Source: Candidatus Macondimonas diazotrophica
GTDB taxonomy: Bacteria > Pseudomonadota > Gammaproteobacteria > UBA5335
Length of the DNA stretch: 64,000 nt
Direction: 5' to 3'
Assembly: GCF_004684205.1 (NCBI RefSeq)
Contig: NZ_SRIO01000001.1
Coordinates: 248,001-312,000, forward strand
Shown: piece after piece, positions 38,974 through 41,854 of the stretch
Layout: every line of letters begins with the position of its first letter
Position numbering within the stretch: position 1 is the stretch's first letter
The notes under the pieces: model-generated
The model's database searches: none
What the model was told of the DNA's origin: nothing
The model's input: only the letters and a program-made list of their open reading frames with translations
Translations under genes and position numbers: made by a program

Positions 38974-39678
38974 TCAGATGTGCACCTCGCCGATCACCGG
39001 CAGATGATCGGACGCGCGCCGCGCGCGGGAGGTGCGCAGCGTTCGGACTCCGGTCAAGCGGGCCGGCGGTGAAACCCAGATCCGATCCAGCCGGAACAAC
39101 GGATACCGCGACGGAAAGGTGGCCGGCGTTGCACCCCGGCTGCCGAAATGACGATGCAGCCAGCGCAAGGGCCGCCCCCACAGGAACCACTCATTGAAGT
39201 CCCCCAGCAGGATGCTGGCATCCACCTCGCCGGTGCCGGTCTGCAGCACGCCGAGCAGGGTGCGGACCTGCTCGCGACGCTCGGCCGGACTGAGTCCCAG
39301 ATGGGTGGCCATGACTTCCAGCCGGCAACCTGGATACCCCAGCACCGCGCGAATCGCGCTGCGGGCTTCGAACCCGCCCACACTCAGGTCGATCAAGTGA
39401 TAGTCGAGCACGGGCAGCCGCGTAATGAGTGCATTGCCGTACTGTCCCTGTTCGCGCAGCAGGGTCGGACCGGAGATGACCTGCCAGTCCGGACTTTGCC
39501 GATAGCACCCCAGCACGTCATCCCCATGGTGATCGGTTTCCACCTCCTGCAAGGCCAGAATGTCGGCATCGATCCGATCGATCAGGCGCTGGACACGCGC
39601 CGGGTCGAAGCACCCATCGGTCCCCACGCAGCCATGGATGTTGTAGCTCGCCACCCGCAGTGGCACGGATGCGGCCAT
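38974..39678 (-). CDS. Endonuclease/exonuclease/phosphatase family protein
   Basis: A 234-aa EEP-fold metal-dependent phosphodiesterase. LRVASYNIHGCVGTDG, ILALQEVE, LLGDFNEW and RASDHLPVIGEV carry the Asn, Glu, Asp-x-Asn and Asp-His catalytic residues of the fold. Substrates of the fold range from DNA to phospholipids and inositol phosphates. No signal peptide is visible. It begins 4 bases after the stop of the PLD-VTT gene, so the two should be co-translated and are likely to work on related phosphodiesters, perhaps lipids. Confidence 0.88.
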   Translation of the reverse strand: MAASVPLRVASYNIHGCVGTDGCFDPARVQRLIDRIDADILALQEVETDHHGDDVLGCYRQSPDWQVISGPTLLREQGQYGNALITRLPVLDYHLIDLSVGGFEARSAIRAVLGYPGCRLEVMATHLGLSPAERREQVRTLLGVLQTGTGEVDASILLGDFNEWFLWGRPLRWLHRHFGSRGATPATFPSRYPLFRLDRIWVSPPARLTGVRTLRTSRARRASDHLPVIGEVHI

Positions 39679-39682
39679 CGGA

Positions 39683-41854
39683 CTATCGATCCGTCAGATC
39701 GCGCGTGCCCCGCACCCGTTTCACCCAGTGATTGAGCCCCCAGCCGACACCCAGCAGCACCAGGGCACTGGCCGCCAGCGTGAGGAGCGTGGCGCCATCG
39801 GGATTGCGCAGGCTGGCTCGCAATCGATCGGTGAAGAACGCCAGGGCGGCGATCCCCGGCCCCATGCCGATCACCGTGCCCAGCAGATAATCCCGCCAAC
39901 GGATCCGGACCGACCCGGCCACCAGGTTGATCACCGCAAAGGGCGCCACGGGCACGATCCGCACCGTCGCTACGGCCATGACCCCATTGCGCGTGATGCG
40001 CTGGGCAATGGCCTCGATTCGGTCGTGGGCGATCGGCCAGCGGCCGCGCCCGCCCAACCAGACCCCCAAGGCATAACCCATGCCCGCGCTGAGCAGCGTG
40101 CCGGTCAACGCATAGACGAATCCGGTCAGCGAACCAAACACCAGCACAGTGGCGACGATCAGCGCGGTGACGGGCACCATGAGCAGGCTGGCCACCACGA
40201 AAATAAGAACCAGCCACAGCGGCGCCAATGGCAGCCGGGCCACCGATTCGACCGCCGCGCGCATCCGTTCGGGCTCGAGCCATTCGCCCAGCGCGGTGAA
40301 CCGCCATGCCAATCCCAGTGCCACGAGCGCCACGAGCGCCGCGCCGACCGCCAGGCGACGCGGCGTGACCGCGGAGGACGACTGCGGCTCCGCCGCGGCT
40401 GGAAACAGCTCCTGCACCAGCGCTTCGGGTTCGATCGGCCGCTCCGGATCACAGATCTCCTGGCGCGTCAGCCAGCCTTCCTCATAGGGCGGCAACTCGG
40501 GTTCCAGCGGACGCAGGCTCCGTCCCTCGCCCCGCAGCGCCTCGATCCCATGCCGCAAGCCACCGTGGTGTCGAATGGCGGCGTCCACCAGATCGGGCGT
40601 GGTATCGAGGTGCTCGGCCAGGAGCCGGTTGCGCAGCGCCCGGATCCCCGGCTGCGTCGCTGCCTCCTCGGGCGTCATCTCGATCGCCAGATCGCATTCG
40701 GTGTCGAGCCCCATAGAGCGGTTGTTGAGATTGGACGAGCCGATGTGGACGAAGCGATCGTCGATGATCATGAGCTTGCTGTGCAGACGGATGGACTGAT
40801 CCAATCCGAGCCCGGGAATGTCCGCGTAATAGACTCCCAGGCGGTCATGCACATCCGCCTGGCGGATGTTCTGCAAAATGCGGATGCGCATCTGGTCCAG
40901 CGACTGCTGCGAGAGCCAGCCGTCGGTGTTGCGCGGCAGGACGATCACGACCTGCGGTCCATCCTGGGCCTGCAGACGCTCGGCCAATACGGCGGCGATG
41001 GCATCGACGGTCAGGTACTGGTTCTCGATATAGATGCTTTGCTGCGCCGCAGCGATGCTGTCGAGATAGAGCCGCTCGATCTCGCGGACTTCCGCCTGGG
41101 TTTCATATTGCGGACGCGTCCGGCTGATCGCCACCTGGACATCGGTCAACTCCGGCGTGATCCCCTCCAGCCACGGAAAGTCGGCCGGCCGGCCGACCGG
41201 CGGCTCATCTACCTCGATGTCTTCGCCGGTGGCCCGCTGCCATCGTTCCCGCGCCAGTTCACCCAGCGCTCCCGCCACAGGCCCGCTCACCATCATCTGA
41301 ACGTCGTGATGGGGCCTGCCGCCCAATCCATCGGCTGCGCAGCGGCGCGGATCATCCACCCGGTGTGCGGAGGTATCCCAGCGGCCGCGCGCCGGGTCGA
41401 TCCCGCCGACGAAAGCCAGGCCATCATCGATCACCACGACCTTTTCGTGGTGCGCGGCGCCCAGCGGACAAAAGCCGTCCAGGCGAAAACGGACGCGCTC
41501 ATGCGTACTCCAATCCAGCTTGTAGCGAATCAGCCGCTCCCGCCCGCGCCCCAACAACAGGGAATAGTCCCAGTTCAGCATGAACACGCGCAGATTGGGC
41601 TGCCGCACCGCCAACCCATTGAGCAGATCTCGCAGCGGTGGACAGGATTCCACGCCGTCCTCCGATTCGGCGGGAACCAGGCACAGACTGCTGTAGATAT
41701 CCCAGCTCAGTAGAAACACCGTCTCGCGGGCCTGCCGCAAGCCGGAATTCAAAGCCGAGAAATAGTCCTGCCCGTCGATCAGGAACGCCACCCGTTCGGC
41801 TGCTTCCAGCCGCCAGCAGTTTCGTCCCGGTTCCAAAATACGCTTGAACGTCAT
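39683..41854 (-). CDS. Phospholipase D-VTT (DedA-like) membrane fusion protein
   Basis: A 723-aa two-part protein. Residues about 20-480 form a phospholipase D/cardiolipin-synthase-like domain with two HKD motifs: HEKVVVIDD (136-144) and LHSKLMIIDDRFVHIGSSNLNNR. From about 500 onward are several membrane helices containing a VTT/SNARE-associated domain of the TVP38/DedA kind (VYALTGTLLSAGMGYALG and FAVINLVAGSVRIRWRDYLL). VTT proteins include lipid scramblases, so joining lipid cleavage or transfer to lipid movement is plausible. It is coupled to the EEP phosphatase gene downstream. Confidence 0.9.
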   Translation of the reverse strand: MTFKRILEPGRNCWRLEAAERVAFLIDGQDYFSALNSGLRQARETVFLLSWDIYSSLCLVPAESEDGVESCPPLRDLLNGLAVRQPNLRVFMLNWDYSLLLGRGRERLIRYKLDWSTHERVRFRLDGFCPLGAAHHEKVVVIDDGLAFVGGIDPARGRWDTSAHRVDDPRRCAADGLGGRPHHDVQMMVSGPVAGALGELARERWQRATGEDIEVDEPPVGRPADFPWLEGITPELTDVQVAISRTRPQYETQAEVREIERLYLDSIAAAQQSIYIENQYLTVDAIAAVLAERLQAQDGPQVVIVLPRNTDGWLSQQSLDQMRIRILQNIRQADVHDRLGVYYADIPGLGLDQSIRLHSKLMIIDDRFVHIGSSNLNNRSMGLDTECDLAIEMTPEEAATQPGIRALRNRLLAEHLDTTPDLVDAAIRHHGGLRHGIEALRGEGRSLRPLEPELPPYEEGWLTRQEICDPERPIEPEALVQELFPAAAEPQSSSAVTPRRLAVGAALVALVALGLAWRFTALGEWLEPERMRAAVESVARLPLAPLWLVLIFVVASLLMVPVTALIVATVLVFGSLTGFVYALTGTLLSAGMGYALGVWLGGRGRWPIAHDRIEAIAQRITRNGVMAVATVRIVPVAPFAVINLVAGSVRIRWRDYLLGTVIGMGPGIAALAFFTDRLRASLRNPDGATLLTLAASALVLLGVGWGLNHWVKRVRGTRDLTDR

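Follow-up and report, generated by a model that had tools for sequence, protein, structure and literature searches.

The window, by which we mean the whole stretch of 64,000 nucleotides that was analyzed, has two genes on its minus strand that are separated by only four bases. The first encodes a phospholipase D (PLD) domain fused to a VTT domain, and the second encodes an EEP-fold phosphoesterase. The initial annotation had described this pair, and both open reading frames are exactly as it gave them, with Pfam domains that score above their cut-offs. The features are as follows.

39683 to 41854, minus strand: PLD-VTT fusion protein, 723 aa, ATG start (open reading frame and Pfam)
41426 to 41449, minus strand: HKD motif 1 of the PLD domain (H136, K138, D143), invariant in 63 aligned PLD domains
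41363 to 41386, minus strand: GRWDT..H motif, with R, W, D and H invariant in the 63 sequences and the motif shared in the human PLD1 alignment
41018 to 41035, minus strand: IYIENQ motif, with E and Q invariant in the 63 sequences
40760 to 40783, minus strand: HKD motif 2 (H358, K360, D365), invariant in the 63 sequences and aligned with PLD1
39827 to 40177, minus strand: VTT domain (PF09335), residues 560-676, 75.0 bits (cut-off 33.9)
39679 to 39682, minus strand: intergenic gap of 4 bases from the PLD-VTT stop to the EEP start
38974 to 39678, minus strand: EEP-fold phosphoesterase, YbhP-related, 234 aa, ATG start

The fusion protein exceeds the Pfam gathering cut-offs for PLDc (57.6 bits, in two stretches), PLDc_2 (57.5 bits) and VTT_dom (75.0 bits), and the product of the second gene does so for Exo_endo_phos (PF03372, 75.2 bits). 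Full-length homologues of PLD-VTT have 71%, 70% and 46% identity to it. Both HxK(x)4D motifs are intact and invariant in the 63 sequences (H128/K130/D135 and H350/K352/D357 in the numbering of the first row of the alignment), which places the protein in the PLD superfamily. The PF09335 score places its other half with TMEM41B, VMP1 and DedA in the VTT/DedA family, from which the window VTT differs in being the C-terminal part of an enzyme, where we predict a lipid-scrambling role. The second protein belongs to the EEP superfamily, and its residues N13, E45, D160, N162, D224 and H225 are intact and family-invariant.

By hydropathy, the hydrophobic segments of PLD-VTT are confined to its C-terminal third, with none at the N-terminus, and neither a signal peptide nor a membrane segment was seen in the EEP protein. 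Because hydrophobic stretches come only late in PLD-VTT and both N-termini are free of them, the two catalytic domains are most likely cytosolic. AlphaFold2 models, for which the input was the window and related-locus sequences only, had pLDDT values of 40 (PLD-VTT) and 39 (EEP) and were too poor for testing the folds. The flanking genes, NnrS upstream and LPS-core genes downstream on the opposite strand, are outside the PLD-VTT/EEP unit. A plus-strand open frame of 661 aa lies opposite the PLD-VTT gene (window 39728-41713) and resembles a high-GC shadow ORF.

The PLD domain had been called cardiolipin-synthase-like, a description that is correct at the level of the superfamily and fails by the NCBIfam cut-offs, as the protein scores 45.9 bits against TIGR04265 (cut-off 290) and 45.5 bits against the ClsB model NF008427 (cut-off 281). 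The same genome encodes a separate ClsA-type synthase with 295.6 bits against TIGR04265, above the cut-off of 290. This rules out PLD-VTT as the sole cardiolipin synthase of the genome and would make it an extra enzyme, unneeded for cardiolipin as such. According to PMC4966929, Xc_0186 is a bifunctional cardiolipin/PE synthase.

When a profile of the 63 PLD sequences was compared with the PDB, the best matches were PLD1 (152 bits), PLD2 (143 bits), a PLD of 1099 residues (131 bits) and PLD alpha 1 (124 bits), entries that we take to be human in the case of PLD1 and PLD2 and from a plant in the case of PLD alpha 1. Weaker phospholipases and PS synthases were among the lower matches, and no nuclease matched at E <= 0.01. 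Thus, PLD1/2 and plant PLD match better than Cls or nucleases do. We take the GRWD and ENQ motifs to be marks of eukaryotic-type PLDs, and the IYIENQ segment to be the named motif of that type; they are partly visible in the alignment of the window protein with PLD1. As far as sequence can tell, the window PLD belongs to the eukaryotic PLD1/2-like branch and is of the lipid type, not the nuclease type. The protein has the two HKD motifs, the GRWD..H motif and the IYIENQ-type motif in common with eukaryotic PLD1/PLD2 and plant PLD alpha, but it is bacterial, fused to VTT and coupled to an EEP gene, and PX, PH and C2 domains are unmatched in Pfam.

The initial annotation also proposed a survey of gene neighborhoods and named missing linkage in other genomes as counting against its proposal; the linkage proves to be conserved. 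A class-wide search of 369 genomes gave 28 with matches at E <= 1e-60, and a phylum-wide search of 398 genomes gave 52 with matches at E <= 1e-40, many of them through the PLD part alone. The 79 regions around these and family-level matches, five further loci (L004-L008) and the window made a set of 85 loci, which were scanned with HMMs built from the window proteins. VTT adjoins PLD in 49 of them, and since L004 and L093 are one contig, there are 48 distinct PLD-VTT loci, all in Pseudomonadota. In 43 of the 48 (44 of 49 before the duplicate was removed), the next gene downstream is the EEP gene, on the same strand as PLD-VTT, and the 43 belong to 23 taxonomic families, going by the family codes in a PLD tree made by a quick method. 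The linkage is beyond chance, as counted among loci with shared ancestry. In 39 of 42 measurable pairs, the gap is within -30 to +20 nt, with a median of -4 and an overlap in 31; the start codon nearest the stop was chosen, which biases these values towards small gaps. Most of the relatives' gene pairs overlap by 1-13 bases, compared with the 4-base gap in the window.

Four PLD-VTT loci (L005, L067, L075 and L096) have no adjacent EEP gene despite room for one, which means that the two genes need not be neighbors; an EEP of the same clade is encoded elsewhere in the L067 and L096 genomes. The fifth, L083, is on a contig that ends after 249 nt. Across 39 loci, distances between PLDs track those between EEPs (r = 0.90), which would equally follow from shared vertical descent. 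Around the loci, no third conserved neighbor was found beyond apparent shadow ORFs and lineage-specific genes: the largest neighbor clusters (77, 51, 38, 14 and 13 loci) read as shadow ORFs of PLD, and the largest that resemble real genes have 12 and 11 loci.

An independent set of plasmid records displays the same pattern. The EEP gene is next door by position in all 19 listed records with 94% PLD-VTT cover (a 20th record with >80% cover was counted outside these 19), and the same 19 top the EEP search list; their genera are Cupriavidus, Caballeronia, Burkholderia, Mycetohabitans and Azospirillum. For example, the annotated genes AZOLI_RS25645 (PLD-VTT) and AZOLI_RS25640 (EEP) of Azospirillum lipoferum 4B overlap by 4 bases. 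RefSeq entries named 'VTT domain-containing protein', such as this one, have the same architecture and EEP neighbor and differ in annotation name alone. The Azospirillum pair (L267:7276-10040) is followed by genes for a PHA depolymerase and an ethanolamine permease. A literature search of open-licence papers for PLD with VTT, DedA or TVP38 listed no paper that describes a PLD-VTT fusion or its function, no biochemical data on the family came to light, and the words 'phospholipase', 'PLD' and 'fused' are all absent from the text of PMC7818093.

Some loci depart from the usual gene structure. Two long open frames (1249 and 1140 aa) raised the idea of a single EEP-PLD-VTT chain, which was rejected: their additional residues come before the PLD domain and have no other Pfam match. 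In G138 (L068:3339-5658), a genome of the same family, PLD and VTT are in different frames that overlap slightly, either a split pair or a frameshift. VTT is split over two frames in L039, L084 and L086, with one in-frame TAG in L039, which may reflect assembly error or decay.

A related gene set is present in E. coli K-12, where ybhP (EEP), clsB (PLD) and ybhN (PF03706) form one overlapping run. As described in PMC9241728, ybhP-clsB-ybhN is the entire clsB operon in Salmonella, and ClsB is a promiscuous transphosphatidylase (cardiolipin, PG, phosphatidyl alcohols and phosphatidyltrehalose). The E. coli set resembles the window in encoding an EEP protein, a phospholipid enzyme of the PLD superfamily and a polytopic membrane protein together. 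It differs in that the window PLD is of the PLD1/2-like branch and not a ClsB, the window membrane part is a VTT domain fused to PLD, the EEP gene is last whereas ybhP is first, and the window EEP is in a clade of its own, apart from YbhP. The combination of EEP, PLD and membrane protein was therefore already known, and the window module is less singular than had been implied. A search of open-licence papers for YbhP found no description of its function.

The membrane part provides the best sequence argument for lipid movement. EEP is nearby in 13 of the 36 PLD loci without VTT, nine of them convergent (one PLD clade) and four with a gene of ~1 kb in between. In all four, this gene encodes a homologue of YbhN (phmmer E-values with YbhN as query, 3e-32 to 2e-24; PF03706 above its cut-off). 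In the stretches that were fetched, a YbhN homologue is thus present in four of the 36 PLD loci without VTT versus none of the 49 VTT loci. In lysyl-PG synthase, PF03706 makes up the membrane part, known from MprF as a lipid flippase, and VTT proteins are scramblases or movers of carrier lipids. An exchange of VTT and YbhN beside the same enzymes would imply that the membrane part transports lipid and does more than anchor the enzyme. We regard this argument as suggestive and not as settled, because the exchange was seen in only four loci in two families. The VTT profile had no match among solved structures at E <= 1.

The architecture, the intact catalytic residues, the lipid-type PLD class, the conserved coupling and the presence of YbhN where related sets lack VTT can all be read from the sequences. 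Starting from them, we propose, with belief and doubt about evenly balanced, that PLD-VTT and EEP form a translationally coupled operon, a module for transphosphatidylation, translocation and phosphoester trimming of membrane lipids. The soluble N-terminal PLD domain would be kept at the cytoplasmic membrane by the VTT domain of the same chain and would move a phosphatidyl group from a phospholipid onto the HKD histidine. Water or an alcohol would then accept the group, and the product would be phosphatidic acid or else an exchanged or a minor phospholipid; we infer that transfer is favored over hydrolysis. The VTT domain would let the substrate or the product switch leaflets. Finally, the presumably cytosolic EEP protein would cleave a phosphoester in one of the lipids of this cycle, either phosphatidic acid or a phosphodiester lipid, and thereby trim or recycle the product. 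The alcohol that a PLD releases has no phosphate, which stays on the lipid or the enzyme. This is why the predicted EEP substrate is phosphatidic acid or a phosphodiester lipid; the earlier suggestion of an EEP action on the released head group is improbable on chemical grounds, as that alcohol has no phosphoester.

A simpler explanation would be a plain membrane-anchored phospholipase D, which hydrolyzes lipids to phosphatidic acid under stress, with VTT as an anchor only and EEP as a phosphatase that converts phosphatidic acid to diacylglycerol. The intact HKD motifs, the PLD1/2-like profile and the retention of VTT within the same chain would fit such an enzyme, as would the separate overlapping frames of PLD and VTT in G138, whether two genes or a frameshift. 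However, a function as anchor would not require that an entire VTT domain retain its conserved P, G and R columns, nor that it be exchanged with the polytopic YbhN, and EEP enzymes are mostly diesterases. We consider this explanation unlikely, although it deserves to be kept in mind.

The EEP family was also surveyed more widely. The window EEP has 29% identity to E. coli YbhP over the full length (blastp 1e-22), and the EEP family profile scores YbhP at 144 bits. An alignment search of the 398 phylum genomes found 143 EEP places at E <= 1e-35, in 132 genomes, and 32 of them adjoin a window-type PLD by position. From the other 111 places, 75 were fetched (15 plus 60 that were hand-picked, with crowded genera thinned) and 36 were left out. 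Among these 75 EEPs unlinked to a window-type PLD, 44 have a PLD of another type within ~4 kb (41 of the 60, and L150, L151 and L161), or 40 if the domain gap has to be <700 nt. As a rough background, a second PLD is present in two of the 85 PLD-centered loci (L090 and L094), in stretches of up to 17 kb and with two-piece matches of one PLD excluded. YbhN is also present beside 16 of the 60.

In an EEP tree (quick method, SH-aLRT support only), three groups are for the most part distinct: YbhP with the ClsB/YbhN loci, the EEPs of convergent-PLD loci, and those of PLD-VTT loci. The window EEP does not appear to be a YbhP orthologue, as the YbhP clade (17 rows, SH-aLRT 99) is apart from the PLD-VTT clade. 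The other PLDs beside 44 of 75 EEPs, together with the separate tree groups, would indicate that the pairing recurs while PLD type and orientation vary. Judging from gene positions, then, members of the EEP family, E. coli YbhP included, are repeatedly partnered with PLDs. Both proteins also occur apart, given that 31 of the 75 sampled EEPs have no PLD nearby and 23 of the 36 PLD loci without VTT have no EEP nearby. Around the ClsB-type EEP loci, the only conserved neighbors found reflect lineage synteny.

The nine convergent loci (L126, L127, L128, L130, L131, L133, L136, L140 and L141, one family) have a window-type PLD without VTT, and their PLD and EEP domain ends are 77-117 nt apart, which is linkage without a shared transcript.

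These patterns bear on a second alternative, linkage without joint chemistry, in which EEP is a general, lipid-independent phosphoesterase that shares only stress regulation with PLD genes. The 31 EEPs without a nearby PLD would be expected from it, some EEPs adjoin histidine kinases or ammonium transporters, and four are fused behind a type I phosphodiesterase. Against it, the pairing recurs with PLD-VTT, convergent PLD, PLD plus YbhN and ClsB-like enzymes, in largely different EEP clades, and the paired genes often have overlapping starts. We find it rather unlikely.

The weakest alternative is a nucleic-acid module in which PLD and EEP are membrane-tethered nucleases that degrade incoming DNA or serve in defense; both superfamilies contain nucleases and there are weak matches to DISARM DrmC (NCBIfam 30.8 bits against a cut-off of 133, PADLOC at best 25.3 bits), but we give it very little credence, since the matches of the PLD profile at E <= 0.01 include PLD1/2 and plant PLD but no nucleases, the GRWD..H motif is common to the window PLD and PLD1, YbhP is encoded beside the lipid enzyme ClsB, and the other fixed partner is a membrane protein of the lipid-flippase type. 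An action of PLD on DNA was what the initial annotation named as counting against its lipid proposal, and the PLD1/PLD2 and plant PLD alpha matches point away from it. The EEP profile also matches nuclease-type EEPs (TDP2 and exonuclease III), more weakly than unassigned EEPs.

It is difficult to tell which lipid a given scramblase-fold protein moves. In the present case, VTT shares a chain with the enzyme that would act on that lipid, and in related sets an unrelated flippase-type fold takes its place; as a result the question of what VTT proteins move becomes testable in one gene pair. A tentative and rather doubtful extension is that bacterial PLD-type phosphatidyl transferases are in general three-part machines, in which the transferase works with an EEP lipid phosphoesterase dedicated to it and with a lipid translocase that can be exchanged (VTT or the PF03706 fold, which is MprF-flippase-like), with EEP as an unrecognized enzyme of phosphatidic acid or cardiolipin turnover. 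If true, E. coli YbhP and YbhN would gain functions, and a concrete hypothesis is now on offer for both.

Two other observations concern EEP proteins. The domain is fused behind a type I phosphodiesterase (PF01663) at L145:5236-8034, L146:3398-5932, L195:2288-4726 and L200:3980-6523, in other gammaproteobacterial genomes; these four have a weak PGAP2IP-nuclease-like match, and the fusion partner also cuts phosphoesters. In the window genome itself, a different contig encodes a second EEP that is more distant, scoring 86 bits (L164:5084-5881).
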